From NCBI GenBank assembly GCA_009663005.1, contig VIGQ01001749.1:1-22518 (forward strand): a DNA stretch of 22,518 nucleotides, written 5' to 3'. Below are positions 1,569 through 22,518 of the stretch, piece after piece. Made by a program: the position numbers and the translations under genes. The DNA comes from Actinidia chinensis. Its lineage: Eukaryota; Streptophyta; Magnoliopsida; Ericales; Actinidiaceae. Within the stretch, counting starts at the first letter, position 1; each line of letters starts with the position of its first letter. The notes under the pieces are model-generated. The model searched no databases. It was not told the origin of the DNA and was given only the letters and a program-made list of their open reading frames with translations.

Positions 1569-1608
<40 letters not shown>

Positions 1609-1941: not shown

Positions 1942-1969
1942 GTTGTATTTAATTATTTCACCGCATGCA

Positions 1970-1977
1970 CATGCGTG
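1970..1977. repeat. target-site duplication of hAT MITE (left copy)
   Basis: CATGCGTG here is identical to 2149-2156 immediately after the right terminus. Confidence 0.88.
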
Positions 1978-2148: not shown

Positions 2149-2156
2149 CATGCGTG
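2149..2156. repeat. target-site duplication of hAT MITE (right copy)
   Basis: CATGCGTG, identical to 1970-1977. Confidence 0.88.
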
Positions 2157-3274: not shown

Positions 3275-3319
3275 GGTTCTTGCTGATGCACGCAAAAGAA
3301 CAGGCCCAAGATAATGAAG
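3275..3319 (+). CDS. candidate 45-bp exon of the same unidentified gene
   Basis: It follows a pyrimidine-rich acceptor (TTTCCTGTCCATGCAG) and ends at a donor AAG/GTAACT. Only one of the three frames is open (FLLMHAKEQAQDNE). That frame needs two leading bases to complete a codon, exactly what the one-base overhang of exon 1830-1941 supplies, giving Gly at the junction. It leaves one base for the next exon. The phase match is the main support; the exon is short. Confidence 0.42.
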
Positions 3320-3410
3320 GTAACTTGCTGTGCGTTCGAAAATTTTGTCTTTTCTGATGATGGTTGGCTGTAGTGGCAAAAAAAATGGTGCTTATTGTCG
3401 TTTCCCCCAG

Positions 3411-3430
3411 GTTCAGAAAGCGAAAGATGA
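3411..3430 (+). CDS. candidate terminal exon with stop codon
   Basis: The acceptor is TTTCCCCCAG ending at 3410. The intron before it is 91 bp, a common plant intron size. In the phase inherited from 3275-3319 it reads Gly (split codon), SESER and then TGA at 3428-3430. A short acidic/basic C-terminal tail is plausible but not diagnostic. The 3' UTR would follow; no clear polyadenylation site was assigned. Confidence 0.38.
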
Positions 3431-5030
3431 TCTGTACTACTAAGGAAATACGGATTAATACCAGAAGTGGCAATATGCTTAGTATGCTTAGAGCAGTACT
3501 AGTAAAAATTCTGTTTTTGTCTGTAAGCAATCCAAACATTCTCTTATTTCAGCACATAAATTATTCGATGAAACATTTCTTTGCGTCTGTTAGCTTCTTA
3601 AATTGATTCCCACTCCGTGGGATTACTCTTATTGGTGGCTCTTTAACCGCCATCAGACATCTTATAATACTGCTTTATATATTCTCATGCTAATAGTCGT
3701 CCTGATAAAAATGCCCAAGACTACTGAGCAGATTGCGCAATTTTAAGTGTGCTAATTCTATATTTTAGCATGCGTTAAAATTCTATAATGATAGACCTGC
3801 TACGACAAGCTATATTTTTTACATGATCACCTTCCACCAGGCCACATGAATCATGCGGACCTAACCAAGACCTTGTTTGTCACCGCAATTAAATAAATTC
3901 AGGATAATATAAAACACTGAAATTACAATAAGTTCTTTTTGTCACCATATGACTCGATCTTCCAAAACTCCTCCATACCATTCCCTCTTAATGACCTCTT
4001 TGGATTATTTGTAGTCACTACAGGATAGCGTAAATTAATTGAGTATTTTTTTTACATATTTGGAATGCTTTGAATTGTACTTGAATGAAATTATTTTTTA
4101 TTTTGTTTGGAAATAATACTTTATGACTTTATTAAATGGATAAATAAAAAAATAAAAAATTGCGAATATGCAATATTTGTTGGATAACAGGTCCATTCTA
4201 TGAAATTCAAGGATTAAATTTTTTATCATGAACAAATTTAGCTCGATAATATAGCCAAATCGCGTCAAATTATAGCATTAGACTAAATTGTGGGAGCTCA
4301 ATTGGGGAGCACTACCAGAGATGCTCTAAACACCTAATTATCATATCACGACAAGACGGTTGGGTCAATTGTTTTGTTCTATAAATGACGAGTTACAAAT
4401 TAACCTGTTAAAGCATAGATAATAATTGCGACCCTTTTATAGTATGGGTGAACGAAAGGATTATGTAATGGCAAGATTTCCTGACATGTCGTATTTAATG
4501 TAATTTGGGGATTTGAGTCTCAATCACAAGCATGCGGAAAGATTTTCAAGCCTTATTCATGCAACTCGTGACTAAAAAGAGATTGTAGATACCGTAGGAT
4601 GATAAGGGATTTCTAGGGACGTCGATGGAGTCGAAGGATCTCGAGAAAAAATACGGAGTTGGACAAAAAACACAGGCTCGCAAGTACTTCGCGGGATGTC
4701 GCGGACGTCGATGGCCCAAAAGACGAAGAGCTCACAAAAATACAATCTTAGCACAGATCTTCTTCAACCAAATTGAAGAAATCAAAATTCTTGGTGGAGT
4801 CAAGGCCATTAAATCCGTTTTAAAGGGATCTAAACAGTGATCAGCATAGAGACGGTAAATGTGGATACGAGCAGATTTTAGACATCAGTAAATTCATGGA
4901 ATTGATAGATTTGACGTGCGTCTTGTAAATGTCTGAAATTCAAATATAACATGAATATCTTTGTCCCGGCAAAAAGGGACACGTTGATTGTTCTCCCATT
5001 CAAGGGTTTTCACGAAAAAAGGTTGGTGTA
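3431..5030. other. AT-rich non-coding DNA between gene end and satellite array
   Basis: I see no gene here. 3960-4340 is very AT-rich. It ends near 4293-4330 in a GGGGAGCACTACCAGAGATGCTC-like phrase (shown split: GGGGAGCACTACC / AGAGATGCTC), which resembles the ends of some plant MITEs, but I cannot find a matching opposite terminus. Around 4600-4840 the DNA is richer in GC and has a basic 71-codon frame (4625-4840) and a 12-bp direct repeat GGACGTCGATGG at 4617-4628 and 4703-4714. This may be decayed transposon sequence. 4860-5030 is featureless up to the first satellite module. Confidence 0.4.
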
Positions 5031-7858
5031 TTCTGAGAATGTGATGGTTGTTTCCTAGCGGGCAACTATAGTTGCAACCACGGTGCGGCAAATCATTTTT
5101 CTTCCTCTTATTAGTTTAAAATTCGAATGCTAAGAGTGATTGAGATGTTTATGGCGGGACAACTGTACTTGCAGCCATGATTTGAGGTCCATTCTATTCT
5201 CTTTTAATTTTAAATCTCAAATGCTAAGAATGTGATTGATCAATTTCGTGATGTATCATAATTTCTCTTTTGAAGTTTGCAATAGATGTTGAGAATGGGA
5301 TTATAATTTCTTGGCAGGGCAATTATGGTTGTAGCCCACGGTTTGCAAATCCTTTCTCTTTCTTTTTCAGTTTAAAATTGAATACTAAGAATTGGAATTT
5401 GCTTGTTTCTTGGCCGGGCGCTGCTGGCTACAACCATGGTTAGTAAGTTATTTCTTTCTCTTTAATTTTAATTTCAATGCTGATAATGTGATTGATCATT
5501 TTCATGATGTTCATAATTTCTCTTGAGGTTTTAGATTAGATGTGGGTTTTTTTAATTTAAATTCATAATGTTGAGAATGTGAGGGATCATTTTCTTGATG
5601 TTTCATTAATTTGCTTCTGAATTGATATGAGATATGTGAGAATGGATTGATCTATTTCTTGGCAGGGCAAATTATAGTTGTAGCCACGGTAGGAAATCTT
5701 TCTCTTCTCTGTTCAGCTAAAATTGAATGCCAAGAAGAGTGATTGACCCGTTCTTGGCGGGGCAATGTAGTTGTAAACCAAGTTAGCAAGGCCATTTTGT
5801 TCTCTTAAATTTTAAATCTCAAAAGAATGTGAATTTATCCATTTTTGAGTTTCATTATTTCTCTTTGAGTGCATATGAGATATTAAGAATGTGATTGATC
5901 TATTTTTTGGCGAAACAAGATAGTTGCAGCCGCTGTGGGCAAATAATTTTCTCTGCCTCTTGTCAGTTTAAAATTCGAATGCCAAGAAGTGATTGGACCT
6001 ATTTCTTGGTTGGGGCAAACTGTTGTTGCAGCCCATGGTGGAAAATCCATTCGCTCTTCTCTTCTTAGTTAAAATGAATGCTAAGATGTGATTGACCCGA
6101 TTCTTGGAGGGGCAAAAACTATAGATGCAACCATGGTTAGGAAGTCCATTTTATTATTTTTTTATTTTTAAATCTACAAAGGTGAGAATATGGAGGGATC
6201 ATTTTCTTGAGGTTTCATAATTTGTCCTTCGAATTTGCCATATGAGATATGAGAAGTGAGGATCTGTTCTTGGCGGGGCAACTATAGTTGCATCCACTAT
6301 GCGGGCGTCCTTTCTCTTTCTTTTTCAGTTTAAAATTCGAATGCCAGAATTTTGACTTTTTCTTACGGGGCATCTATAGTTGCACAGCCACGGTGGCAAA
6401 TCCTCTATTTCTTTTTCAGTTTAAAGTTCGAATGCTACTAATATATTGACTGTTTCTCGGTAGAAGCAATTGTAGTAGCAGCCATGGTTAGCAAGTCCAT
6501 GTGTTTCTCTTAATTTTAAAATCTCAAATGATGATAATGTAATTGATTCATTTCGATGTTTCTTAATTTATCTTTTGAGTTGCATATGAGATGTTGAGAA
6601 TGTGATTGATTTGTTTCTGGCGCGGCAACTATAGTTCCAAACCATAGTGGGCAAATCCTTTTTCTTTCTCTTTATTTTAAAATTCACAATACTACGAATG
6701 TGATTGACCTATTTCTTGGTGGGGCAACTATAGTTGGCAGCCATGATTTGCAGATCCACATGTTTCTTTCTTGTAATTTAAATCTCAAACGTGAGAATGG
6801 GATTAATCCTTTGTTGATGTTCATAAATTCTCTTTTAGTTCGCATATTAGATGTTGAGAATGTGATTATCTATTTCCTTGCAAGGCAACTATAGTTGCCA
6901 GCCACGGTAGCAAACCTTTCTCTTTCTCTTTTTAGTTTAAAATTTGAATACTAGATTGAGTTGATTGTTTCTTGGCGTTGCAGACTGTCATTGTAGCCAT
7001 GGTAGCAAGTCCATTCTTTTCTCTTTAATTTTAAATCTCAAATGCTGATAATTTGATGACATTTCTTGATGTTTCATATTTCTATTGATTTGTGATGAGA
7101 TGTTGAGAATGTCTTTATGATGGACCCTGTTCTTGAGTTTCATAATTTCTAATTAGAGTTTGTGTATGAGATGTTCAGAAGTGATTGATTATTTCTTAGC
7201 GGGGAACTGTTGTTACAGCCACAGTGCGTAAATCATTTTTTTCTCTTCAAGTTAAAACTGAATGCTAAAAATGTGATTTACCCGATTCTGTTTATTAATT
7301 TTAAATCTAAAAATGTTGAGAAGTGAATTGACTATTTTCTTGATGTTCCATAATTGTCTTTTGAGATGCATATGAGATGTTGAGAATGTGATTGATTTGT
7401 TTCTTGGCGAAGCAACTACATTTGCAGCCACTATGGCCAATTTTTTTTTCCGTTCTCTTTCTCTTTCAGTTTAAAATTCGAATGCAAAGAATGTGATTGT
7501 CTTATTCTGACGGGCCAAATGTAGTTGCAGTCACGGTAGGCAAAATCCTTCCTCTTTCTCTTATCATTTAAAATTCCAATGCTAGAATTAGGTTCACCCG
7601 TTCATGGAGGGGCACTATAGTTGCAAAAAACCAGAGTTACCAAAGTCCATTCTCTTTCTCTTTTAATTTAAATCTCAAATGCATGAGAATATGATTGACC
7701 CCTTTGTTGATGTTACAAAATTTCTCTTTGAGTCGGCATATGAGATGTTCAGAATATGATTGATTTGTTTCTTGGCGGGGGCACTATAGTTTAGCCATGG
7801 TGGGCCAATCATTTCTCTCTGCTAGTTTAAAATTAGAAGGTCGATTTTATTGATCTAT
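5031..7858 (+). repeat. satellite array, segment 1 (trimeric A-B-C unit, about 264 bp)
   Basis: The array starts at TTCTGAGAATGTGATGG. Every module opens with a GAGAATGTGATTGA word. Module A follows with TTTCTTGGCGGGGC, the dyad AACTATAGTT, a GCAGCCACGGTGGGCAAATC word, a TTTCTCTTTCTCTTCTCAG tract and TTTAAAATTCGAATGCTA. Module B follows with CTTGGCGGGGC, AACTGTAGTT, GCAGCCATGGTTAGCAAGTC, a CT tract and TTTAATTTTAAATCTCAAATG. Module C follows with TTTTCTTGATGTTTCATAAT, then TTTGAGTTCGCATATGAGATG, and lacks the dyad. CATATGAGATG landmarks fall near 5868, 6240, 6585, 6842, 7088, 7163, 7368 and 7738. Typical spacing is 245-260 bp, but intervals of about 345-372 bp carry an extra 98-bp module and the roughly 75-bp interval at 7088-7163 is a doubled C module. 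Confidence 0.93.
5062..5075. other. 14-bp perfect dyad in satellite module A (first intact copy)
   Basis: GCAACTATAGTTGC equals its own reverse complement. Further intact copies are at 6278-6291, 6885-6898, 11678-11691, 11782-11795, 12207-12220 and 14629-14642. Many other modules have it with one base lost or changed. In B modules the centre reads CTGTAG (for example 11249-11262, 20126-20139). Whether a protein binds it is unknown. Confidence 0.85.
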
Positions 7859-7980
7859 GGGGGGGGGAGGGAAAAAGAGGTGGAAGAAATGGGGAGCACA
7901 GAAGCGAGAGATAGGCTTCGCAGGTTAGTTCAAATGCGATATTTTTTTTGTTTTGTTGCCAAAAAGGTAATTACAAGTTT
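7859..7980. other. 120-bp unrelated insert in the satellite
   Basis: The module A/B sequence stops after GATTTTATTGATCTAT. A G9 run, purine-rich DNA (GGAAGAAATGGGGAGCACAG) and a T-rich end follow, and module B resumes around CTGGCATCGGCACATTGAG at 7981. The insert matches no other part of the window. No terminal repeats are seen. It could be a small insertion, a deletion scar of a larger element or an assembly patch. Confidence 0.6.
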
Positions 7981-9396
7981 CTGGCATCGGCACATTGAGT
8001 TGCATCCATGGTAGCAAGTCCATTCTTTTCTGTTTAATTTTACATCTCAAAAGCTGAGAATGTGATTGACCCTGTTTCTTTGATATTTCATAATATTTCT
8101 CATTAGAGTTGTGTTGAGATGTGAGAATTCTTGACAGGGCAACTTTAATTGCAGCCACGGTGGGCAAATCCTTCCTCTTTCCTTTTTCAGTTAAAATTCG
8201 ATGCTAAGGAATATTATTGAATTTTTTTTTGGTAGGGACAACTGTAGTAGAAGTCACGGTTAGCAAGTCCATTCAATTTCTTTAATTCAAATCTCAAATG
8301 GATGATAATGTAATTGACCATTTTCTTATGTTTCTTAATTTCTCTTTTGAGGTTGCTATGAGAGGTTGAGCAATGTGATTGATCTGTTTCTTGGCGGGAA
8401 ACATAGTTGCAACCACGGATGGGCAAATCATTTTTATTTTCTTTTAGTTTAAAATTTCAAATTCTAAGAAGTGATTGACCTATTTCTTGGCGGGGGGCAA
8501 CTGTAGTATAGCCATGATTACAGATCCATTTGTTTCTCTTTTAATTTGAAAACTCAATGTGGAATGGGTGATCCTTTTTTTGAGTTTTATAATTTCTCTT
8601 TTGAGTTCGCATATTAGATGTTGAGCATATGATTATTATTTCTGCAAGGCAACTAGTTGACAGCCCACGGTGGCAATCCTTTCTCTTTTCCTTTAAGGTT
8701 AAAATTCGAATGTTAAGAATGAGTTTTGACTTGTTCTTGGCGGGGCAAGCTGTCATGCAGCCATGGTTAAAAAGTCATTTTCTTTCTCTTAATTTTAAAT
8801 CTCAAATGTTGATAATGTGATTGATCATTTTCTATGTTCATAATTTCTCTTGATTTGCTGATGAGATGTTGGAATGGATTGATCTGTTTCTTGGGAGGGC
8901 AACTATAGTTGTAGCCCCAGTGGGCACATCCTTTCTCTTTCTCTTTCTTTTTTTAGTTCAAAATTGAATGCCAAAAATGTAATTTACCTATTTCTTAGCG
9001 GGGCATGTAGTGTAGCCATGGTTAGCAAGTCCATTCTATTTTATTTAATTTAAAAATCGAAGCTGAGAATGTGATCTGACCATATTCTTGATGTGTCATA
9101 ATTCTCATTAGAATTCTATGTATGGAGATGTTGAGAATGTGATTAATATGTTTACAGGCCGGGGTAACATGTTGTGAAGCCATGGTTAGAAGTCCATCTC
9201 TTTCGTCTTTAATTTCGTAAATCTCAAATGCTGAGAATGTGGTTTATCCTTTCTTGATAGTTCATGTAATTTCTCTTGGAGTTTTGCCATATGAGATAGC
9301 GAGAATGGATGATCTGTTTCTGGCGGGGCAATGTAGTTGGAGTCACGGTGGGCAATTCCTTTCTCTTCTCTGTAGTTTTTAAATTCAAAATGTAAG
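7981..9396 (+). repeat. satellite array, segment 2
   Basis: The same A-B-C unit continues, with C-to-A landmarks near 8113, 8353, 8610, 8860, 9120 and 9290 (mostly 240-260 bp apart, the last only about 170 bp, implying a lost module). It is interrupted at 9397 within the TTCGAATGCTAAG/AATG stretch at the A-B boundary. Confidence 0.92.
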
Positions 9397-9425
9397 AAAA
9401 AAAAAAAAAAAACCCACCCCAAAAG

Positions 9426-9482
<57 letters not shown>
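9397..9482. repeat. poly-A/C block interrupting the satellite
   Basis: The block reads A16, then CCCACCCC, AAAAG, then an uninterrupted A56 (9426-9481) and G. It sits between ATGTAAG and AATGAATGAGATGACCC, the same point in the satellite unit where both Tourist-like MITE copies are inserted. It may be the remnant of an insertion with a poly-A tail, or a badly resolved homopolymer. Phe-rich frames on the reverse strand across it are artefacts. Confidence 0.85.
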
Positions 9483-9483
<1 letters not shown>

Positions 9484-9741
9484 AAATGAATGAGATGACC
9501 CATGTATGGCAGTGGCAACTAAGTTACAGTTCATTGGTACAACTCCTTTCTCTTTTTCTTTAATTTTAAATCTGAAATGCACAAAGAATGCGATTGATTT
9601 CTTTATTGATGTTTCATATTTCTTTTGAGCGCATATGAGATGTTGAGAATGTGACGTCTTTTTCTTGGCGAGGAAACTATAGTTGCAGCAAAGTGGGCAA
9701 ATCATTTTTCTTTGTCTTATCAGTATTAATCGAATTACTAA
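9483..9741 (+). repeat. satellite array, segment 3
   Basis: About one unit: a B module (GATGACCCATG.., GGTACAACTCC), a C module with GCGCATATGAGATGTTGAG at about 9618, and an A module ending CGAATTACTAA at the MITE insertion point. Confidence 0.88.
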
Positions 9742-10646
9742 GGTGATATTTGGTGGATAATCTGTTAATTTCGTTTTTCTTATTTGTGTTTGGTTTAATT
9801 TATTAATGGACATAGAAAAAACTTGTTTGTGTTGCCAAAAAACCTAAATGAAAAACAAGGCTTAAAGAGTTTTCACTATTTTTGAAAATAGGAAAATAAG
9901 AAAAAGTTGTTTTTGTTTTGTTTAACAAATTTATTTACCAAATTTTTTATCGAAAATTTTTCAACTCCACCTCCTCCTCCTCTCCTCCTTTACCCACACC
10001 GCCTCCTCCTCACCACCTCATCACCGCCACCACCTTCCACCCCACCGCCTTCTCTCCTCCTCTATTCCACCCCGCCGCCGCCAAAGCCTCGCTCCTAACT
10101 CCACCACCTCCGCCCCAGAGCTTCTCCTCATCCACCATCACATCCTATACCAGCAGAACCATCACCACAACCCCACTTCCACACCCCCTCCTCCACATCG
10201 CCTCACACCACCACCGCCTCCTTTCCTACTCCCCACGCCTCACCACCACCACCACCGCCGCTACCTCCACCACCGAGACGCCGCCACCCCACCTCCTCCT
10301 CCTCCTCCTCCATCACTACCTCCTCCACCACCTTTCTCACCTCCATCACCAAACCACCACCTCAACCGTTGTTCCGCTTTTGCCACCTCCACCACATTTT
10401 CCATCCACCTCCTCCACACCTCCACCTCTACCACCTTCTCACCTCTCCTCCACCACGGCCTCCACCACACACTTTTTTTTAAAATATTTAAAGTAGGTGA
10501 AAACCAAACATATTTTTTAAAAAAGTTTTTTTTTAAAAAAAGGAACACATAATACTTTGAGTTTTTTGTTTACAAAAATTAAACAAAAAAAACAAACTTA
10601 AACAAACACAAAAAATTAGAAAAAACAAACGTTACCAAACATCCCC
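9742..10646. mobile_element. Tourist-like (PIF/Harbinger) non-autonomous element, copy 1, 905 bp, expanded by a CCT/CCA tract
   Basis: The left terminus is GGTGATATTTGGT; the right terminus read on the other strand is GGGGATGTTTGGT (11 of 13 match). TAA flanks it on both sides (9739-9741 and 10647-10649), the 3-bp target duplication typical of PIF/Harbinger. Subterminal DNA is T-rich on the left (TTTGTGTTTGGTTTAATTT) and mirrored on the right (AAACAAACTTAAACAAACAC). A shorter relative is at 19462-19834 and shares the words TTTTTGAAAATAG, CAAATTTATTTA and GTTACCAAACATCCC. The centre is replaced by a long pyrimidine-rich microsatellite. There is no transposase. Removing it restores a nearly normal satellite A-B boundary. 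Confidence 0.75.
9961..10480. repeat. (CCT/CCA)-type trinucleotide-rich tract, about 520 bp, inside MITE copy 1
   Basis: Almost no G occurs on the plus strand; CTC, CCT, CCA and CAC triplets dominate with few A/T interruptions. The plus-strand frame 9918-10496 reads as a Pro/Ser/Thr/His-rich 192-residue protein and the reverse frame 10261-10548 as Gly/Val/Trp-rich, both explained by the triplet composition rather than by coding. The shorter family member keeps only a brief C-rich patch (about 19649-19685) at the corresponding place, so the tract is a local expansion. Confidence 0.88.
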
Positions 10647-11229
10647 TAAAGAATGAGATGACCCATTTCGTGGCAGGGCCAAGTGTAGTTGCAGCCATGG
10701 TTAGCATGACATCCCTACATGGTTTGCAAGTCCATTCTCTTTCTCTTTTAAGTTTTAAATCTTAGATGTGAGAATGTGATTGATCCGTTTCTTGATGTTT
10801 ATTAAATTCTTTTTGAGTTTTATATGAGATGTAAGAATGTATTGATCTATTTTTTGGCGAGACAACTGTCGTTGCAGACACGGTAGGCAAATCATTTCTA
10901 TTTCCTTCTTAGTTTAAAATTCAAATGCTAAAGAATATGTGATTAGGCCGTTTCTTGGCCAGGGGACGATAGTTGTAGCCATGGTTAGCATGACAGTAGT
11001 TGTAGCAATGATTAGCAAGTCCATTCTCTTTTAATGAAGGCTTATATAATGTTGAGATTGTGATTGAAACCGTTTCTGGATGTTACACATTCTCTTTTGA
11101 GTTCGCATATGGAAAAATGTAAGAATGTGATTGATTTGTTCTTAGCTGCGGAAACTAAGTTGCAACCACGGTGGGCAAATCATCTTTCTTTCACTTCTCA
11201 GTTTAAAACTTGCATGACTAAGAATTGAT

Positions 11230-12630
11230 TCACAAGTTGCTTAGTGGGGCAACTGTAGTTGCAGCCATGGTTAGCGAATCCATTCTCTTTCTTTTTAATT
11301 TTAAATTATCAGATGGTGAGAAGTGATTGAATCCATTCTTGACATGTATAAATTTTTCTTTTTGAGTTCGCATATAAGATATTAGGAAAGGGATTACCTA
11401 TTTCCTTGGCGGAGAACCTAAATTTGCAGCAACGGTTGGCAAATCCTTTTTCTTTCTCTCATTTTAAATTCAAATGCCTAAGAATGACATTCACCTATTT
11501 CTTGGCGGGACACTATAGTTTGTATGCCATGGTTAGCAAATCCATTCTCTTTCCCCTTATTTTAAATCTCAAAGCTTAGAATTGTGATTGATCGGTATCT
11601 TAATGTTTTGAAATTTTCTCTTTTGAGACTTTGTCATATGAGATGTTTAAGAATGTGATTATCTGTTTCTTGGCGGGGCAACTATAGTTGCAAGCCCACG
11701 ATGGACATCTTTCTCGTTCCTCTTTCTTTTCCGTTTGAAAATCGAATGCTAAGAATGTGATTGACATTTTTCTTTGCAGGAGCAACTATAGTTGCAACCC
11801 TGGTTCCTAAAATCAATTGCTCTTTTCTTTTAATTTTGAAAACTCGATGTTATTATGTGGATTTATCCTTTTCTTGATGTTTATAATTTCCCTTTAGAGT
11901 TTGCATTGAGATGTTACAATGGTGATTGGAATCTATTTCCTTAGTGTGGACAATTATAGTTATAGCCAGGTGGCAATTCTTTCTCTTTCTCTATTCAGTT
12001 TAAAATTCGAATATGCCAAGAATGTGCTTGACTTATTTCTTGGCGGCAACTGTTTTGCAGCCATGGTTAGCAAGTCCATTCTCTTTCTTTTTTATTTTTA
12101 AATTTCCAATGCTGAAATGTGATTCATCATATTCTTGAGATTTCATATTTCTCTTTTAGTTTGCATATGAGATGTCAAGAATGTGATTGATCTGTTTCTT
12201 GGCGTGGCAACTATAGTTGCAAGCAAGCCACGATGGTCAAACCTTTTCTCATTCCTTCTCAATTTTAAATTCAAATGTAAGATGAGATTGACCTGTTTCT
12301 TGGCAGGACAACTATATTGCAGCCATGGTTACCAAGTCTCATTCTTTTTCTTTTTTTAATTTTAAATCTGAGAGCTGAGAATAGTGTTGATCCATTTCTT
12401 GATGTTTATAAATTTTTCTTTTTTGAGTTTTGTAATATAGATGTTAAGAATGTGATTGTTTCTGTTTTTTTTGGTGAGCCAACTGTCATTGCGCACGGTA
12501 GGGCAAATCCTTTCTATTTCCCTTTTTTATTTTAAAAATTTTGAATCGCTAAGAATATGATAGCGTTTCTTGCCGGGGCGACTTAGTTCAAAACCATGGT
12601 AGCCATGACCATCCTGCCATGGTTCGTAAG
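11230..12630 (+). repeat. higher-order duplication within the satellite, copy 1
   Basis: About 1.4 kb shares ordered private variants with 17725-19100: CAGATGGTGAG, TTGACAT..TATAAATTTTT, CGCATATAAG-GATATTAGGAAA, AATGACATTCACCTATTTC, GATTATCTGTTTCTT, GGACAATTATAGTTATAGCC, AAGATGAGATTGACCTG and the CATGACCATCCTG variant near the end. The order is identical, with an offset near 6.5 kb. This indicates block duplication of several units rather than independent monomer drift. Confidence 0.72.
12165..12435 (+). repeat. representative well-preserved A-B-C satellite unit
   Basis: The unit runs from GCATATGAGATGTCAAG through module A with the intact 14-bp dyad (12207-12220), module B with GCAGCCATGGTTACCAAG (about 12319-12336) and module C to the next TAATATAGATGTTAAG. 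The length is about 270 bp. It is given as a reference copy. Confidence 0.85.
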
Positions 12631-15186
12631 TCCCATTCTCTTTTCTCTTTTAATTTTAAAGCTTAGATTCTGAGATTTGTGATTGATCCGTTTCCTTATG
12701 TTTATAAATTTTTTTTTTTGAGTTTGTATATGAGATGTTAGGAAGGTGGATTGATCTTTTTTTTGGCGAGACAACCGTCTTGCAGACCGGTAGCCCAAAT
12801 CCTTTCTATTTTCTTTCATATTTAAATAAAATTCGAATGCGAAGAATATATTGAGTCCGTTTCTTGGCGGGGCACTAAGTTGCAGGCCAGGTTAGCCAAG
12901 TTCCATTCTTTTCTCTTGTAATTTTAATCTGTAATTCTGAGATGTTATTGGTCCTTTTCATGATGTTTACTAATTTCTCTTTTAAGTTCGCATATGAGAT
13001 TTGAGATGTATTGACTCTGTTTCCCTGGCGGGCAACTTAGTTGCCAGCAGCAGCCACAGTGGGCAAATCCTTTCTCTTTCTCTTCTCAGTTGAAAATCGA
13101 CTAAGATGTTTGTGCACCCGTTTCTTGGCGGGACACAGTAGTTGCAGCCATAGTTACCAAGTCCCTTCTCTTTCTCTTTTAGTTTTAAATCTTAGATGCT
13201 TAACATATGTGACACATTTCTTGATAACACAAAATTTCTCTTGTGTCCGCATATGAGAAATGTTGAGAATACTGATCATTTCTTGGTGGGACAAACTCTT
13301 ATAGTCAAAGCCATGTGCGCAAATCCCATTATCTTTTCTTTTCTCATTTAAAAACGCATGCTATGAAACGTGATGGACCCGTTTCTTGGCGGGACACTTA
13401 AGTTGCAAGCCATGGTTACAAGGCCTTCTCTTTTAATTACAATCTCCATAATGAGAATGTGATTGAATTATTCGTGTGTTACCCAATTTCTCTTTGAGTT
13501 CGCATATGAGAGGGTTAAAATGTGATGATTTGTTTCTTGGCTAGGGCCACTATAGTTGCAGCCACGGGTTGGCAATCATTTCTCTCTCTTCTCAGTTTAA
13601 ATTTGAATGCTAAGAAATGTGATTGACCCTTTTGTTGGCGAATGAACTTAGTTTGTAGCCATGGTCTAGCACTCCCATTATCGTTTCTTTTAATTGAATC
13701 TCAAATGTTGATAATGACATTTATCCTTTGTTGATGTTTCGTATTTCTCTTTTTAAGTTCGCATAGGAGATGTCAAGAAATGTGATTGATTTGTTTCTTG
13801 GCTGGGCAACTAAGTTTGCCGCCAAAGTTTACAAATCTCTTCTCTCTTCTCAGTTTAAAATTTGAATTCTAAGAATGTGATTACCCTTTTGTTGGCGAAT
13901 GAGCTTTAAGTTGTGAGCATGGTTTCGCAATCCTTACTTTCTTTTTTTAATTTTTTAATCTTCAATGTTGAAGGGACAGTTACCTTTTGTTGTGTTTCAT
14001 AATTTCTATTTTTAGTTTGCATATGAGATTTCAAGCAATGTGATTGATCTGTTTTCTTGGCGGGTACTTCTGTTGCAGCCATAGTTGGCAAATCATTTAT
14101 CTTTCTCTTCTTAGTTGAAAACTCGGAAATCTAAGAATGTGATTGACCCGATTCTTGGCAGGGCAACATAGTTGCAGCCATTGGTTAGCCAGTCCATTTT
14201 CTTTTCCTTTCTCTGTAATTTTAATCTAAAATGCTACGAATGTGATTGATCTCTTTCTTGGTATGGCAACTATAATGCAGCCAAGGTGGTCCATTCATTT
14301 CCTTTCTCTTCTAATTTTTAAAACTCGAATGCTAAGAATGTGATTGACCATTTTCTTAGCGGGCGCAACTATACTTGTAGCCTGGTTAGAAATCCAATTT
14401 CTTTCTCTTTTACTTTTAATCTATTTGCTAAGAAATGTGAGTAATTAATCCTTTTTTTGATGTTTCATAATTTCTCTTTGAGTCGCATATGAGATGTTGA
14501 GAAATGTGAATTGATCTATTTTTTTTTGGTGGCCAATTGTAGTTGCTGCCACGGTGGTGAAATTCTTTCTCTTTCCTCTTCTCTGTCTAAAATTCAATAT
14601 TAAGATATATTGACTCTTTTTCGTGCAAGCAACTATAGTTGCGCCATGATTTAGTATCCCTTCTTTTCTGTTTTAATTTGAAATCTCAGATGCTGAAAGG
14701 TTGGATTAACCGTTTCTTGAATGTTACAATATTGTTTTTGGTTTGCATATGAGATGTTGAGATTTTAATTGATTTATTTCTTGGCGAGCGATTATAGTTT
14801 CATCCATGGTGGGCAATCATTTTCTCTCTCGTTTAAATTTGATCTAATAATATGAGTGACCCTTTTTTTTTTTTTTGTTAGTAAAAGAACTTTAGTTGCA
14901 AAGCCGTGGTAAGCAGAATCCGTCCTCCTTTCTCTTTTATTTTAAAACTCAATGTTTGAGCATGTGGATTCCTCCTTTTGTTGATGTTTCCTCATTTCCC
15001 TTTTTAGGTCGCATATGAGATGTCAAGAATTGGATTGATCTATTTCTTGGCGAGGCAACTATAGTTGACCGCCACGAGTGGGCAAATTCTTTCTCGGTCT
15101 CTTCTCATTGAAATCAATGTTGGAATGAGAATTGACCTATTTCTAGGCTGATACTATAGCTTTAGCCTGGTTAACATGGTCCATTC

Positions 15187-15826
15187 TGGTTTCACCAAGG
15201 TTTGAACTATCCACTCCATTTACCTTCAAGGAGTTTGTTTTCAACCTTGTATCATCTTCATACGCTAATCCTTGTAGTTTGAGTGTAGCTTGAACAAAAA
15301 CACTGGTGAAGCTTTTTGAGTATTTCTATTGTAAAAAGCCAAACCCTTAGAGTTGAGTGTTTCCTCTTATAGTAAAACCCTAGGAAGCTTGAGTTAGCTT
15401 AGACAACAACCTTAGTGAGAGTTTTGAGTGGTTCTCTGTACAAAGCCACCACTTAGAGTTTAAGTGTTTTGTCTCTTGTAAAGTAAAATCCATGAAGTTT
15501 GAGTGGAGTTAGACAAAATCACTTATAGAACGTGAGCGGAGCCTTGGTAAATCAGCCCCCCCGTTATAATTGTTAATAAAATTGCAAGTAGTGGCAGAAG
15601 ATCTGTAGAGGTTTTGGGGAGAACGTGATCACACAAGTGTGATCGAAACCTCGAATTATTTGTGTCCCCTTCTTGTGCTTGATTCTTTCTTTATATGGCT
15701 TTATTACTTTGGCATATAATTGATTCATAGATGATTGAGTAGATTAAGTTTTATTAATCAATACTTGTCATTAATTTAGAAAAACCCATTCACCCCCCTC
15801 TTGGTTTGTCTTTTGGGCAACAAGTA
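15187..15826 (+). mobile_element. copia-type LTR fragment or solo LTR in the satellite
   Basis: The segment begins TGGTTTCACCAAGG and ends with CCCATTCACCCCCCTCTTGG..GGGCAACA, a phrase characteristic of the 3' end of many plant Ty1/copia LTRs. It also holds an 8-bp hairpin (GATCACAC-AA-GTGTGATC, 15627-15644) and a GGGGAGAACGTG phrase seen in such LTRs. GTCCATTC flanks it on both sides (15179-15186 and 15827-15834); eight or more bases is longer than the usual 5-bp copia duplication, so the exact ends are uncertain. No primer-binding site, coding region or second LTR follows; satellite resumes at once. Confidence 0.6.
15270..15545 (+). repeat. about 110-bp internal tandem repeat in the LTR fragment, 2.5 copies
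   Basis: Units start at about 15270 (CCTTGTAGTTTGAGTGTAGC), 15380 (CTAGGAAGCTTGAGTTAGC) and 15490 (CCATGAAGTTTGAGTGGAG). Each then has an AGACAA / GAACAA word, an ACTT-AGTGA word, a TTTTGAGT word, CTGTACAAAGCC or TTGTAAAAAGCC, CTTAGAGTT, and TAGTAAAA or AAGTAAAA. The third unit is truncated. Confidence 0.78.
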
Positions 15827-18800
15827 GTCCATTCCTCTTTAATTAATAAATCTCACATATGAAATGTGATTGAACTGTTTCTTGACGTTACACAATTTTT
15901 CTTTCTTTTGAGTTCTCATTGAGATGTTCAAAAAATGTGATTGATTTGTTCTTAGCTGTAACTGTAACTGAGCCACGGGACAAGATCATTCTCCCTCTTC
16001 TCAGTTTAGAATTTGAATGCTTAAGAATGTGAATTGACCCTTTTGTTGGTGGAAGAATTTAGTTTCAAGGCATGGTTACCAAATCCTTCTCTTTCTCTTT
16101 TATTGTAAATCTCAAAGATTTATGTGAGTAGACTTGTGTTGAGCTGTCCAGTAATTTCCGGGGGGGAGTCACATAGAGATGTCAATATGTGATTTATCTA
16201 TTTCTTTGCGGAGCAAACTATAGTTGGCAGCCACAGTGGGCAAATCTTTTTATTTCCTCCTTAGTTTAAAATTCAAATGCTCAAGAATGGAGGCACCATG
16301 GCGGGGGCGGGGCACGGAGGTTGCAGCCATGGTAAACAAGTCCATTTTCTTTTCTTTCTTGTTTTAATTTTAAATCTGAAATTCTAAGGAAATGTGATTG
16401 ATCTGTTTCTTTGGTGGGGCAAAGTGTAGTGGCAGCCATGTGGGATATCATTTCCCTTTCTCCTTCGCCTAAGTTTAAAACGCGAATAGCTAAGAATGTG
16501 AATTACCATTTTCCTTAGCGGGCAGTAAAATCAATTTCTTCTCTTTTAAATTTTAAATCTATTTTGCTGAATGTGAGTAATCCTTTTTTTGATGTGGCAA
16601 AGTCTCTTTTGAGTTCGCATATGAGAGTTTTGAAGAATGTGATTGATCTTTTTTTTGGTGGGACACTATAGGGGCTGCCACGGTATGCAAATTCTTTCTC
16701 TTTTCTCTTCTCTGTCTAATACTCGAAGCTCGAATTGTGATTGACCCTTGTCTGGGCAGCGCAACATAGTTGCAGCCATGGTTAGTAAAATCCTTCTCTT
16801 CTGTTTTAATTTTAATCTCCAACTTGAAATCGAATACCTTTGTTTGAATGTTTCATAATTTCCTCTTTTGAGTTCGTGCCTATGATATGTCAGGAATGTG
16901 ATTGATCTGTTTTGGTTGGCACTATAGTTGCTTGCCCACGTGGGCAAATCATTCTTCTCTCCTCAGTTTTAAATTTATGCAAGATGTGAATTCACCTATT
17001 TCTTGGCGGGGCCAACTGTTGTTACAAACCAGGGTTAGCAAGTCAATTTTCTTGCTCTGTTAATTTTAAATTCTAAAAATGCTAAGAATTATGGATCTGT
17101 TCTTGGTTAGGCAACTTAAGAAGAAAACAATGCCGTCCAACGGTGGGGCCATTCATTCCCTTTCCTTCTTTGCCTAAAATTCCAATATAAGAATTGAATT
17201 GACCCGTTGCTTGGTATAGCAACTAATTGCAGCCATGGTTTAGTAAACCATTCTCTTTCTATTTTAAAAATTTTAAATCCTCAGATGCGAGATGTTATTG
17301 CACCGTTTCTTAAAGTTCCAAATTTTTTTTGAGTTCGCATATGGAATGTAAGAATGATTGATTGTTCTTGGTGGTGCAACTATAGTTTTTTTCCTCACAG
17401 CCCCGTGGGCAAACCATTTTCTCCCGTCTCAGTTTTAAACTTTGGAAAACTAAGAAATGTGATTGCCTTTTTGTTTCGCAGAGGAACTTTAGTTCAGCCA
17501 TGGTTAGCAAATCAATCTCTTCCTTTAATTTTTACATCTCAAATATTAAGAAATGTGGATTATCCTTTTGTTGATGTTTCATAATTTCTCTTTTTTTAGT
17601 TCGCATATGAGATGTCAAGACTGTGATTGATTTTTTTCTTGGCGGGGCAACTAATTGGTCAATACCACGGTGGTCAATCCTTTCATCTGCTTTCTCATTT
17701 GTCTGATTCGAATGTTAAGAATGATATTACTTGTTTCGTGGCATGCCGCTGTAGTACCGCCATGGTTAACGAACCATATCTTTTTTTTAGTTTTAAATCT
17801 CAGATGGTGAGAATGTGATTGATCCATTTCTTGACATTTATAAATTTTTTCTTTTGAGTTCGCATATAAGGATATTAGGAAAGGATTGACCTATTTCTGC
17901 GGGGAACCAAATTTGCAAGCACGTGGGTAAATCCTTTTTCTTTCTCTCAGTTTCAAAATTCAACATGCTTAGAATGACATTCACCTATTTCTTGGAGGGA
18001 CAACATAGTTGCAGCAGCCATGGTTTACAAATCATTCTCTTGTCCCCTTTTGTTTATTTTAAATCTTCAATTCTTAGAATGTGATTGATCTGTATCTTGA
18101 TTTTTGAAATTTTCTCTTTTGACTTTGCATATGGATTTAAATGTGATTATCTGTTTCTTTGGCGGGCAACTATAGTTTTGCAACCACAGTGGACAATATT
18201 TCTCTTTCTTTCTCTTCTCAATTTAAAACTCAATGCTAATAAATGTGATTACCATTTCTTTCTTTGCGGAGCATATATAGTTTCAAACCGTGGTTGTGAA
18301 TGTGATTATCCTTTTCCTGGATGTTTCTAATTTATCTTTAGATTTCGCATATGAGATGGTTGAAAAGTTAGTGGATTTTGTGTCTTGGTGGACAATTATA
18401 GTTATAGCCACGGTGGGCAAATTCTTGTCTCTTTCCATTCGTTTAAAATTCGAATGCCAATATTGTGGATTGGACTTATTCTCTTGGCGGGCAACTGTTG
18501 TTGCTGCCATGGTTAGCCAAGTCCCTTCTCTTGCTTTTTATTTTTTTTTTTTTTTTTTTTTAAATGTTCAAATGCTGAAATGTGATTGATCCTATCTTGA
18601 TGTTTTTCATTATTTCTCTTTTTAGGTTCTCATATGAGAGTCGCAGATGTGATTGATGTTTTCTTCTTGGCGGGGCAAACTATTTTTGCAAGCCACGGTG
18701 GCAAATTCCTACCTTTTCTTCTCTTCTCATTTTGGAATTCGAATGTTTAAGATGAGATTGACCTGTTTCTTGGCAGGGCAGCTGTAGTTACCGCCCTGGT

Positions 18801-19461
18801 TAACAAGTCCATTCTCTTACGCTTTTTAATTTTAATCTCAATGTTGAGAATCGTGATTGATCTATTTCTTGATGTTTTAAATTTCTTTTTTGAGATCGCA
18901 TATGGATGTTTAAGAGTGTGATTGATCATTTTTTTTGGGTGGGACCACCAAAGTTACATCCACGGGGGCAAATTCCTTTCTATTTCCTTTTCCTTATGAA
19001 AATTCGAATGCGAAGAAATGTGAGTTACCCCTTTCGTGGCGAGCGACTAATAGTTGCAGGCATGGTTAGCATGACCATCCTGGCCATGGTGAGTAGTCCA
19101 TTCCTCTTTATTTTTAATTTTAAATCTCCACTTCTGAAATGGTATTGGGTTCCTTCTTGTGTTCCATAATTTCTCTTTTTGGTTCGAATATGAGATGTTG
19201 AGAATTGATTGATCCCTGTTTCCTGGCGAGGCACTTAGTTGTAGCCATGGGTTTAACAAGTTCCATTCACTTCTCTTTGTATTTTTAAATCTCCACTTCC
19301 TGAGAATGTAATTGGTCTTTTCTTGTTGCAAAATTCTCTTTTGAGTTCGTATATGAGAGGTTGATAATGAATTGATGTTTTGCTTGGCCGGGGAACCTAT
19401 ATGGACAGCCATGGTCGGAAAATCTTCCTCTTTCTCTTCTCATTCAAAATTCAAAGACAAA
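15827..19461 (+). repeat. satellite array, segment 5
   Basis: The A-B-C units continue with landmarks near 15925, 16170, 16620, 16880, 17335, 17605, 17865, 18130, 18350, 18630, 18900, 19190 and 19350. Larger intervals (16170-16620, 16880-17335) contain extra A/B modules; the 19190-19350 interval lacks one. A T21 run at 18541-18561 expands the CT/TTTAATTTT tract of one B module. A GC-rich oddity, GGCGGGGGCGGGGCACGG, occurs at about 16299-16316. Confidence 0.93.
17725..19100 (+). repeat. higher-order duplication within the satellite, copy 2
   Basis: Partner of 11230-12630; see the ordered private variants given there. It differs by many single-base indels and by the T21 expansion at 18541-18561. 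Confidence 0.72.
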
Positions 19462-19834
19462 GGTGATTGTTTGTTACTCTTAATATTTTGTTTTGTTTAA
19501 TTTGCGTTTTCTAATTTAACTGAACACTTTTTTGTGTTGCTATTGATAATTTTTAAATAAGGGAACATTATTTCACATTTTTGAAAATAGTAAAAAACAA
19601 TAAATGATTTTTTTGTTTTGTGTTACAAAATTTATTTATAAAACTTTTTCACCCTCACCCCTCCCCCGCTGCCGCCAACCACCTTTTTTAAATTTGCTTA
19701 AAAAAAAGGTAAATAGACTTTTTTTTGCTTTTAAATAATTTTTAATAAAGTGACACAACATATAAGTTAGTTTTCGTTTTTACAAAACTAAACAAAAAAA
19801 AATACCAAAAAGTGAAAACGTTACCAAACATCCC
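19462..19834. mobile_element. Tourist-like (PIF/Harbinger) element, copy 2, 373 bp
   Basis: The left terminus is GGTGATTGTTTGTTA; the right terminus on the other strand is GGGATGTTTGGTAACG. Shared words with copy 1 (9742-10646) are TTTTTGAAAATAG, TTTTTTTGTTTTGT, AAATTTATTTA and GTTACCAAACATCCC. AAA flanks both sides (19459-19461, 19835-19837), possibly a degraded TAA. It has only a short C-rich patch where copy 1 has 520 bp of CCT/CCA. It is inserted at the same A-B boundary of the satellite unit. A reverse reading frame over it (19742-20041) is spurious. Confidence 0.7.
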
Positions 19835-20382
19835 AAAAATGTGATTCATCACATCACGCCCGTTTCTCCTTACGCGGCAACTATAGTGCAGCCATGGTTG
19901 AAGTTGATTCACTTTCTCTTTTAATTCTAAATCTAATATATGAGAATGTGTTGATCCATTTCTTGATATTACAAAATTTTTATTTGGGAGTTCACATCTT
20001 AATGTGAGAATGTGATTGATCGATGTCTTGGCGGGCAACATAAGTTGCAGTCGAAAATTCTTTCTCTTTCTCTTCTCAGTTTACAACTCGATGCTAAAAT
20101 GTGATTGACTCTATTTCTTTGGGGTGCAACTGTAGTTGCAACCATGGTTAGCAAGTCATTCTCTTTCTCTTCTTAATTTTACATCTCAATACTTAGAATG
20201 GTGTTCTTAAAATACTGAGAATGTGGATTGATCCTTTTCTTGATGTTTTAAAATTTTCTTTTAAGTTCGCACATGTTATCATGTTCTTTCTCTTTCTTTT
20301 TAATTTTACAATCTCAATGCTACGAATGTGAATTGAACCTTTTCTTTGATGTTTTTAAATTTTCTCTTTTGAGTGCGCAATA
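19835..20382 (+). repeat. satellite array, segment 6
   Basis: About two units. It includes a B module with GCAACTGTAGTTGC (20126-20139) and a partly duplicated B-C stretch (20190-20350, AATACTGAGAATG then CTACGAATGTG). It ends inside a C module at TTTTGAGTGCGCAATA where the LTR is inserted. Confidence 0.9.
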
Positions 20383-22223
20383 TGTAAGGACCCGAATTTT
20401 GCATAACTTTTCTCTGAAATAATTAGTACTGGAGAATTGAAAAATTTTACTAAGCGAGATAAATGTGATGTGGGGGGTAGAATTCATTTGGGTGTGTTTT
20501 AATATACATTTGAAAGTCGGGGGGTTAAAAGTGTTGAGGGGTAAGAGTATAATAGATTTCTTAGCCTTGCACACACACAAAAAATATCAACCCCTTCTAA
20601 TAAGCCAACTCTTATCTCTCTCTCCTCTCTCCGCTCTCCTCTCCTCCCTTTTTTGTTCTTACTCAATAGCGCTAAAATTCACCAAAACTTCAGTCCCCTT
20701 CAAGACTCCAAACGCCTAAATCGCTTCTTCTACCCGTATTAAAGCTGCAATCGCGTTCATATTCGTCACCAAGAAACTCACATTCGGTTGGAGCTCTTGG
20801 AGGCTAGGGTTCCATTTTTCCATTCAATTCAACTCAAATCTTGAGATAGGGAAGACAATTCTACTCCCTCTAAGTTTTGTCTCATTTGATGTATAGCATT
20901 TACTCTTGTCCTTATTGCTCACACCACTAAATTATCATTTGCTCCCAATTGGGTGTTGGTATTTGATTTTGTGATCTACGAATTAATACTTGTTTGATGC
21001 AATTGATGGTTGATTTGCACTCCTTTGGATGTCCATTTAATTTGCTCTACATATCAAATTTTGGCTTAGATCTCAGAATTTGTTTGGGTGAAATTCCACA
21101 CCTCTAAAATGAAAATCTCCTTGTTGCCCCTATTTTTAGGCTGCTGCCCCTATTTTCCATGTTGTCCCCTTTTTTGGATGGCTTCCAGCCCCTTTTGATG
21201 CCATATGGCCCCCGATTGTCCATTCTTTCTGTTCTTGACCCGTACCATCATTTTGAATACCGAATTCACTTTGATATACTAAATTTAACTCTTTGGACAC
21301 ATGATTTAATATTTCTTAATTATAATTATACACCGCGGTTGATATTTTTTGGCGAAAAAGCTGAACTTTTGGACTAAATGTGACTTTTGGGGAGCGTTTG
21401 AAATACGAATTATTTTGATATATATTCATGGTACAAATGAACCTCTACTATCATCATTTGTTTTGTCCCTAGTCATGGGTGCACGAAGCCCACGAAATCT
21501 GGCAGGATTGACAACGGAGCCCACGAATCTGGCGGAGGATACTTTTCCTAATAAATTATGAGGCATTTTCTTAGAAATGTCCGACCCTTTGATGTATTTG
21601 GACCGTTTGGTGAATTTTACGAAATAGATGTTCAATATGAGAAATGAGAATTTTGGGTAACTGTTTGGACCTTGGTGGGATCCTTAACTAATTTGGGACA
21701 CTTAGACATATTTTAAAGACACATGAACAATTTCGGTACTTAATGTTGATTAAGCTTTTTGTTCAGTCCGATCCTTCACATGGGTCGTTGTCCCATCATC
21801 ATAACTCCTCATTATGCATTTATCATGTTTATACACCTTGCGATGGTAGAATAGTTTTCCTACTGGGCTAGTGAGCTCACCTAAAAATTTTCAGGTACTC
21901 GACATGGAGCATGAGATGGATCTGAATGTGGTTTTGGCATACCATTGGAGTTCATCGAGCATGAAGTTATTTTCCATCTTTGTCTTTATTTTTGAAAGTG
22001 GTTTTTATAACTTCATTTAATTAATCCTTTTTGACGATTGGTTATTGTACTAACTTTTAAACTTTGCACTTATATCAGGTTATGAACGATAGTGGGATAA
22101 ACTTGTTTTACTCTGATGGTGGGATGATATTATTTGAATTTGACATTCAAGGAATATTATGAAATCTGACTTGTCCTACGTGGATTTTATTTACTTTTGG
22201 GTATTAAACTTTAAGGAGTGACA
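20383..22223 (+). mobile_element. solo LTR of a gypsy-type retrotransposon, about 1.84 kb
   Basis: It starts TGTAAGGACCCGAATTTT and ends GGAGTGACA, so it has TG..CA ends of the style seen in long plant Ty3/gypsy LTRs. Satellite sequence on the two sides belongs to one interrupted C-A junction (..GAGTGCGCAATA / ACATATGTTATGTTGAGAATG), with CAATA before and ACATA after, consistent with a 5-bp duplication blurred by one change or indel. A polypyrimidine stretch (TCTCTCTCTCCTCTCTCC, about 20615-20632) and a GAGGCTAGGGTT phrase (about 20801) fit a transcribed leader region. No gag-pol, primer-binding site or second LTR is seen, so recombination between LTRs probably removed the interior. Lineage is not assigned. 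Confidence 0.68.
21487..21538 (+). repeat. short direct repeat inside the gypsy-type LTR
   Basis: AGCCCACGAAATCTGGCAGG (21487-21506) recurs as AGCCCACGAATCTGGCGGAG (21518-21537), 31 bp downstream. Confidence 0.7.
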
Positions 22224-22283
22224 ACATATGTTATGTTGAGAATGTTATTGGTCTAATGTCTTGGCGGGAACTTATATTTATAG
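22224..22283 (+). repeat. satellite remnant beyond the LTR
   Basis: CATATGTTATGTTGAGAATG, TTATTGGTCTAATGTCTTGG and CGGGAACTTATA continue the C-A junction interrupted at 20382. Similarity stops near 22283 before the dyad and CACGG word are completed, so a second break or divergence point lies here. Confidence 0.75.
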
Positions 22284-22507
22284 GTAAACCTTAACGAGGG
22301 CTAAACTAAAAGCACAAAAACTTCTGAGACCAAATTATAAAAATCCCCCTAGGGACTCAAACTGTAACTTTTAAAAATTCTAGGACAAAAATATAATTTT
22401 TAGAACTCAATGACTAAATATAATTTTTGAAAATTATACGGACCTGAAGTGTAATTATCTAAACTTTAGGAATATTCCCATAATATTCAGTTGGCTCCAT
22501 TAAACGC
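22284..22507 (+). repeat. AT-rich DNA with a degenerate 30-bp repeat
   Basis: About five imperfect units between 22325 and 22475 follow the pattern GGACT/CAAA..TGTAATTTTTAAAAATTCTA: starts near GAGACCAAATTATAAAAATC, GGACTCAAACTGTAAC, GGACAAAAATATAATTT, ATGACTAAATATAATTT and CGGACCTGAAGTGTAAT. Such phrases are common in plant LTRs, so this is probably LTR-derived, but the element ends are not seen. Confidence 0.55.
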
Positions 22508-22518
22508 TGTAACATCCC
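22508..22518 (+). other. possible start of another LTR, cut by the window end
   Basis: TGTAACATCCC resembles the TGTAA..CCC start of the LTR at 20383 and of many plant gypsy LTRs. Only 11 bases are available. Confidence 0.3.

Follow-up and report, generated by a model that had tools for sequence, protein, structure and literature searches.

A trimeric satellite of two sister modules and a shortened third in Actinidia chinensis

The DNA analysed here (the window, 22,518 nucleotides) is a whole unplaced contig, C1367, from an assembly of 638 Mb in which 29 contigs are chromosome-sized. From 5038 to 20379 it carries, on the + strand, about 150 head-to-tail modules in the order A (~100 bp), B (~97 bp) and C (~66 bp). 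This array is a plant-type tandem repeat (satellite) of two sister modules and a shortened third. Very probably a monomer was duplicated, C was shortened and the trimer was amplified and dispersed, the window holding a transposon-broken, interstitial and partly error-decayed copy.

Layout of the array and its inserts

Repeated 9-mers in 5031-20395 are spaced chiefly near 64, 98, 164, 200 and 260 bp, and 9-mer pairs at most 1200 bp apart number 2814 there versus 47 in the left flank (761-5030). Iterated module HMMs gave 162 non-overlapping matches in the whole window, weak ones counted; 12 of these, outside 5030-20390 or scoring 9 and below, were dropped, leaving 150 modules (start 5030-20390, score >9), of which 56 are A-like, 50 C-like and 44 B-like. 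The HMM labelling places some B copies under A. At E<1e-3 matches occur on the + strand only, with none before 5031 or after 20400, and five mononucleotide shuffles gave none at this threshold. The label string of the 150 modules contains 36 strict ABC triplets, and mean module identity to the consensus is 82%. Spacings and HMMs together bear out the trimeric satellite with a period near 264 bp that the first-pass annotation had described, the period measured here being about 260 bp. The kinship of A and B, also proposed there, holds as well: their consensus sequences are identical at 84 of 97 aligned positions. Among module pairs with more than 40 compared columns, mean identity is 0.740, 0.740 and 0.759 within the module types and 0.684-0.706 between them. 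A one-strand head-to-tail unit, related monomers repeated as a multimer and presence at more than one locus place the array among satellite DNA. Of the 17.25 kb (5031-22283) at first assigned to the array, the satellite itself is real but about 3.9 kb is inserted DNA. The features are:

5038-9729, + strand: satellite array, stretch 1 (A-B-C), from module HMM matches; interrupted at 7837-7975
7837-7975: inserted DNA, ~140 bp, non-module, between A (7753-7836) and B (7976-8050) module matches
9744-10650: MITE-like insert 1, a gap in module matches; ends GGTGATRTTTGG...CCAAACATCCCC, possible TAA target duplication
10659-15187, + strand: satellite array, stretch 2, from module HMM matches; collinear with C27 14.8216-14.8264 Mb
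15190-15825: LTR-like insert with direct GTCCATTC repeats on both sides
15826-19452, + strand: satellite array, stretch 3, from module HMM matches; collinear with C27
19457-19836: MITE-like insert 2, at an A-B junction like insert 1 and related to it
19838-20379, + strand: final contiguous stretch of the array, from module HMM matches
20392-22223: LTR-like insert with TG...CA ends, from sequence and junctions
22227-22281, + strand: array tail beyond the LTR-like insert, from sequence; weak alone (E 0.31)
10997-12633, + strand: larger duplication, copy 1; pairs with 17490-19099, ungapped identity 0.911
17490-19099, + strand: larger duplication, copy 2; pairs with 10997-12633
6540-7100, + strand: smaller duplication, copy 1, best-aligned part; 20-module lag, pairs with about 8310-8870
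8310-8870, + strand: smaller duplication, copy 2; pairs with 6540-7100

We take the MITE-like class of insert 1 from its end motif, and the LTR name of the insert at 15190-15825 is likewise our assumption. The insert at 20392-22223 is flanked by a near-perfect target duplication (ACATA right, AATA left) and reads as a putative solo LTR; two short ORFs in it have no Pfam match. Joining the empty site across this insert gives a weak A match (E 0.0054). The array also contains two segmental duplications that the first-pass annotation did not describe. The copies of the larger lie 64 modules (~6.49 kb) from each other and those of the smaller 20 modules (~1.77 kb), both whole numbers of modules; their diagonals reach z 3.08 and 2.49, and 20 label-preserving shuffles did not exceed 1.97.

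The window was also searched for elements other than the satellite. The modules showed no conserved element for binding or folding. The palindrome GCAACTATAGTTGC was rejected as a functional box because in A it is conserved to an average degree (rank 24 of 81 windows) and in B, with a centre that is mostly G, poorly (rank 70 of 77). Single-strand folding of the three consensus modules, B being folded with the A-centre form of the palindrome, was no better than that of shuffles (z 0.01, 0.43 and 0.74). The window has no Rfam match at gathering score and no tRNA. By eye, exon-like stretches lie in the left flank at about 1830-1940 and 3275-3430; a peptide from them has no PDB match and only one sub-threshold Pfam match, and of five further ORFs two have sub-threshold Pfam matches and three none.

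A second copy on C27 and the probable share of read error

The right 12 kb of the window is a second copy of a locus near 14.82-14.835 Mb on contig C27, with the inserts at matching places. The insert at 15190-15825 is present at the same place (C27:14826376-14827021), MITE-like insert 2 corresponds to C27:14831999-14832374 and the LTR-like insert at 20392-22223 to C27:14833145-14835013. MITE-like insert 1 is found in overlapping pieces of 70.7-73.6% identity at C27:14820433-14821530, immediately to the right of a 100-N gap, a weaker match than that of the other inserts (about 80-81%). The placed copy of the array begins ~1.1 kb right of this gap, insert 1 lying between. The left 9.7 kb of the window is without C27 counterpart, 12.7 of the 22.3 kb examined there left of a gap being N, and 7837-7975 has no match in the C27 stretch compared, which does not represent that part of the window. 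Judged from these alignments, the right part of the window is probably a second assembly of the C27 locus, probably of the other allele; C1367 and C27 may be two alleles, a single locus that was assembled twice, or the products of a recent duplication.

Between the two copies, substitutions, rich in transversions, amount to ~8% and indel events, mostly of one base, to ~8-11%. Between the copies of the LTR-like insert at 20392-22223 we counted 141 substitutions, of which 42 are transitions and 99 transversions, and 171 indel events in 1735 aligned bases, and the array shows similar rates of both. Since these differences are transversion-rich, indel-heavy and alike in array and inserts, we read them as read error rather than evolution. 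By our estimate, base errors of the long reads account for about half of the visible copy-to-copy difference and for most single-base indels. The age that the array seems to have on a first reading is thus overstated, because assembly error makes up part of the difference between its copies.

It is unlikely that the strong divergence is real and that an old array is decaying through many small deletions and insertions. The internal duplicates have gap:substitution ratios of 1.53 and 1.11; simulations gave 0.09-0.55 in seven substitution-dominated runs and 1.21-1.36 in four indel-rich runs. With 4 of 26 module pairs left out for unlike labels, the duplicates share 46 substitutions versus a mean of 17.4 under random pairing (30 of the 46 are C-to-T or G-to-A), and their indels are common to both hardly above random (21 versus about 16), which speaks against real decay; 207 substitutions are private, not all of which need be errors. 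Real decay is also indicated by the excess of C-to-T (9.4%) and G-to-A (9.5%) among changes from the consensus, the others amounting to 2.0-5.4%, and by other arrays of the genome: with modules containing N or shorter than 50 bases dropped, C25a, C25b+c, C7 and C642 have 0.057-0.064 indels per base, as many as the window (0.061), versus 0.027 in C12, 0.034 in C27c+d and 0.041 in C18. Therefore, some indels may be real, or those four groups may bear errors too; their transition/transversion ratio is 1.18-1.45 versus 0.99 in the window. Excerpts of a study of Arabidopsis (PMC8145854) describe natural indels as mostly 1-3 bp long, with a bias to deletions in heat and warming lines, but almost all lie near simple or tandem repeats, whereas here homopolymer runs of at least 3, which hold 28% of array bases, contain only 28 of 141 and 21 of 103 gaps of one base between duplicates. 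For control lines, the same excerpts count 31 SNVs and 8 indels (and, likewise, 60 and 10), with 0.46 transitions and 0.16 transversions arising in a genome per generation (PMC8145854), against the transversion-rich, indel-heavy differences between the C27 and window copies.

The family at other loci and the origin of module C

The module family occurs on C7, C12, C18, C25, C27, C642 and the window's own contig, with at least 139 matches, a lower bound from 40 scored candidates out of 99. All 16 of the 10-kb stretches examined contain modules, and the trimer forms small arrays on four chromosome-sized contigs besides C27. Of 17 array pieces, 14 yielded a TRF unit of 240-300 bp and three (C18c, C27b and C27d) did not; C27a is the window's own locus. 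In all 14 units, from other arrays and the window, the B part resembles module B more than module A, and in 12 the A part resembles A more than B (exceptions C12c and C7). A-B-C order alone is no test here because the units were rotated and split by alignment to the window's trimer. Identity is 82-95% in 12 units; of the remaining two, one is the window's own and the other, C12a, fits poorly (75% in the C part).

Module C had been described as either shortened or fused to a different end. Its end aligns without gaps to the end of the long monomer of the C12 array (23 of 31 columns identical), a monomer that was assembled by eye and for which the last three aligned columns are the head of the next module. 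None of 5000 block-2 shuffles and one of 5000 mononucleotide shuffles equalled this alignment. Because of it, shortening is favoured over fusion, and the best reading of C is a monomer with an internal deletion. Against the A and B tails of the window the C tail gives a pyrimidine-rich match only, equalled by 7 and 33 of 2000 block-2 shuffles, and for contig C642 the C tail gives no significant match (122 of 5000 shuffles as good).

A ~100-bp ancestral monomer would thus have been duplicated to give the sister modules A and B, and C would derive from a further copy through the loss of about 31-35 internal bases. Amplification would then have taken the A-B-C trimer as its unit and given rise to small blocks on several chromosomes, with expansion possibly by unequal crossing-over or by reinsertion of excised circles. 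Mobile elements have inserted into the array and broken it up. Since C-to-T and G-to-A are the commonest changes from the consensus, the array may be kept as methylated heterochromatin; it presumably has no sequence-specific function.

That the sequence was not recognised as a known plant satellite agrees with the open-access literature searched, where no published match was found. One 15-mer had no match there, and six 12- to 16-mers gave only single-12-mer matches, in six papers on other subjects. A mention of '264 bp' in an excerpt of PMC10407605 is part of a base count and not a repeat unit. One 19-mer had two matches in microbial genome contigs, about the chance expectation that we estimate for 257 Gb, and three patterns had none in viral contigs. 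A 35-base C-A junction word gave no match at up to 3 mismatches, which we attribute to indels.

Relation to centromeric repeats and significance

The first-pass suggestion of a large centromeric or subtelomeric array is not supported. On C27, a contig of 21.8 Mb, the placed copy has an interstitial position at 14.8 Mb, and family blocks are roughly 2-20 kb in the stretches scanned, although assembly gaps may hide more. They lie at separate places along one contig (13.75, 13.80 and 14.82 Mb on C27; 7.40, 7.42 and 9.08 Mb on C25), and a block on C18 lies ~1.5 Mb from the contig end. A centromere function of the satellite is unsupported.

Alpha-satellite consists of 171-bp monomers in near-identical units, is centromeric and carries CENP-B boxes. 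Like its higher-order repeats, the array here consists of diverged sister monomers amplified as a multimer; it differs in having ~100-bp monomers and no CENP-B-like box. For the CENP-B box core, as we take the motif to be, the window has no site at up to 1 mismatch (1.22 expected). In the parts of the report consulted, switchgrass centromeric repeats likewise combine full-length monomers with a truncated one, in long indel-rich reads (PMC4053949). There, the monomer is 175 bp, several like monomers accompany each truncated one and the arrays are centromeric, in contrast to the ~100-bp monomers and small interstitial blocks here, the comparison being one of descriptions and not of sequences. 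In kiwifruit itself, the accessible part of PMC9909506 describes the centromere repeat Ach-CEN153 and, on Chr03, a unit of three monomers of 152, 188 and 189 bp, likewise unequal; by description, monomers of 152-195 bp and centromeric regions of 0.1-2.1 Mb are unlike our array.

It is improbable that the A-B-C blocks are what is left of an earlier centromeric satellite displaced by the present centromere repeat; if they were, their positions would mark ancient or shifted centromeres. Quite improbable is a functional, CENH3-binding centromeric higher-order repeat whose true size is hidden by assembly gaps: the truncated monomers of switchgrass units and the start of the C27 copy ~1.1 kb from an N gap would fit it, but the blocks are small and scattered, the array is interrupted by inserts, CENP-B-box-like sites are absent at up to 1 mismatch, and the kiwifruit centromere monomer is 153 bp in the part of PMC9909506 seen. 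Very improbable is that the modules belong to a transposon (e.g. CACTA or Helitron-like), as its internal or subterminal repeats, and do not form a free satellite. In favour of this, the left flank (1-757) carries a transposon-like end that has subterminal repeats, and the modules contain a short near-palindrome, but the flank repeats have no module matches at E<1e-3 and arrays vary in length and composition between loci.

The plant-type satellite proposed here adds one family with a readable history, from monomer to sister pair, shortened third module, trimer and several loci. Shared inserts can tie an unplaced contig to its chromosome, and a draft long-read assembly can make a repeat array look more decayed than it is, owing to wrong bases.

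Array, inserts and flanks

Profile and spacing analysis of the window revealed a single-strand tandem array of three module types, A, B and C, in which common 9-mers recur mainly at about 64, 98, 164, 200 and 260 bp. Iterated profile searches, counting only matches with a score >9, gave 150 modules from 5038 to 20379, with 36 strict A-B-C triplets; 56 carry the label A, 44 B and 50 C, the A and B labels of diverged copies being occasionally exchanged. All module matches at E<1e-3 in the window lie on the + strand, none lies in the flanks of the array, and none appeared in five of five shuffles. The first-pass annotation proposed a unit of about 264 bp; the tandem-repeat finder TRF gave array periods of 249-294 bp and also about 97-103 bp. 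The 17.25-kb interval assigned to the satellite does hold the array, but 3.9 kb of it belong to five interrupting stretches, whose MITE-like and LTR-like names are suggested by their end motifs:

7837-7975, non-module DNA
9744-10650, MITE-like insert 1, related to 19457-19836
15190-15825, LTR-like insert, flanked by GTCCATTC repeats
19457-19836, MITE-like insert 2, related to 9744-10650
20392-22223, LTR-like insert, TG...CA ends, target duplication ACATA/AATA

Positions 1-757 resemble the end of a CACTA-type transposon, having ...TTTTGTTGTAGTG at the terminus and, subterminally, several copies of GTGACGAAA/TTTTCTCAC in either orientation; 22283-22518 resemble a portion of a further LTR-type element that the end of the contig truncates. 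In the left flank, 1830-1940 and 3275-3430 are exon-like open stretches with splice-like borders; they had no PDB match and no Pfam match above cut-off. Long A-rich tracts at 1502-1616 and, within the array, at 9399-9486 (97% A in 9421-9486) may be assembly artefacts.

Modules, duplications and spread

The consensus sizes are about 101 (A), 97 (B) and 66 bases (C). A and B are identical at 84 of 97 aligned positions, and C shares with A the initial 16 bases and the following TTTCTTG word. The end of module C aligns gap-free with the end of the long monomer of the C12 array (23 of 31 columns; 0 of 5000 block-2 shuffles equal), as does the C tail of the C27 13.75-Mb array (0 of 5000). For the C tail of C642 the alignment was non-significant (122 of 5000); the long monomer and tails compared were assembled by eye. 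The window's own A and B match the tail weakly. Module C is best interpreted as a monomer from which an internal stretch of about 31-35 bases was deleted. Four B-like modules (10659-10764, 10939-11032, 12554-12662, 19020-19130), one of them labelled A in the profile searches, carry about 20 additional bases, e.g. CATGACCATCCTGGCCATGGT, and are perhaps a sub-lineage inside the array.

At least 139 genome matches to a 260-base query lie on contigs C7, C12, C18, C25, C27, C642 and C1367 (the window), and module counts in the 16 fetched 10-kb stretches range from 3 to 103. Spacing peaks at about 101 bp in two of three C12 pieces and at 245-267 bp in most remaining pieces; the C27 13.75-Mb stretch has an additional spacing of about 165 bp. 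TRF found a unit of 240-300 bp in 14 of 17 array pieces. When these units were cut by alignment to the window's trimer, which the piece C12a fits poorly, all 14 B parts were nearer B, and 12 of the 14 A parts were nearer A. Since units of this size with A- and B-like parts recur across loci, the trimer probably predates dispersal of most blocks.

In a module-by-module comparison, two diagonals, at lags of 64 and 20 modules, exceeded all 20 label-preserving shuffles:

11059 onward vs 17552 onward, lag of 64 modules
about 6260-7100 vs 8060-8870, lag of 20 modules

Ungapped identity in the longer local alignments is 0.911 and 0.890, respectively, the first half of the alignment at the 20-module lag being rich in gaps. 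Over the remaining lags, tested to a distance of 75 modules, more distant modules were on average no less identical. Unequal exchange within arrays fits these whole-module duplications, and excision as circles followed by reinsertion would fit the spread between loci; circles of plant satellites are described in PMC2543021.

For kiwifruit, PMC9909506 reports centromeric regions of 0.1-2.1 Mb made up mainly of 153-bp repeats, with a three-monomer unit in one centromere. Switchgrass centromeres have higher-order units including truncated monomers (PMC4053949), comparable to the shortened module C here. The open-access literature searched held no description of the A-B-C sequence. Conservation, folding and a CENP-B box search yielded no functional element in the modules, and the window contains no CENP-B box; a short palindrome was rejected, its conservation not being special and its folding no better than chance.

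The C27 counterpart

The window is the entire contig C1367 (22,518 bases) of an assembly of 638,422,350 bases in 1499 contigs. C1-C29 measure 13.9-27.1 Mb and C30 0.2 Mb, hence the chromosome number is likely 29, which with the assembly size would fit kiwifruit (Actinidia, x=29). From 10158 to 22518 the window runs collinear with C27 (about 14.8210-14.8353 Mb), and this collinearity takes in both the right end and the inserts at 15190, 19457 and 20392; the right part of the window thus duplicates the C27 locus near 14.82-14.835 Mb as a second copy.

Differences between window and C27
Region; substitutions (transitions); indel events; aligned bases
LTR-like insert 20392-22223; 141 (42); 171; 1735
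Array stretch 1; 256 (73); 336; 3225
Array stretch 2; 289 (89); 357; 3230
Insert at 15190; 51; 55; 605
Insert at 19457; 24; 38; 353
Right end; 22; 22; 277

Random error gives an expected transition:transversion ratio of 1:2, and plant mutation favours transitions (control lines 0.46 vs 0.16, PMC8145854). Gap:substitution ratios are 1.53 and 1.11 for the internal duplicates and 0.09-0.55 for simulated substitution-dominated pairs. Duplicate module pairs (22 used, 4 of 26 dropped) share 46 substitutions, 32 of them transitions, against a random-pairing mean of 17.4, and 21 indels against about 16. Changes from consensus reach 9.4-9.5% for C-to-T and G-to-A and 2.0-5.4% for the others, an excess that is real decay. 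Among the control arrays, indels per base are lower than in the window array in C12, C27c+d and C18 and about equal in C25, C7 and C642, where transitions are commoner. The window array is thus truly diverged, but probably less than apparent.

MITE-like insert 1 is represented on C27 by overlapping pieces only (70.7-73.6%), immediately right of this feature:

C27:14820288-14820387, 100-N gap

A related element in reversed orientation lies near C27 14.838 Mb. The window's left 5030 bases had no match within the fetched C27 stretch, and the 22.3 kb fetched left of the gap, 12.7 kb of them N, gave no module matches. The window seems to extend beyond the gap, and C1367 could assist closure of C27:14820288-14820387, where the window continues leftward.
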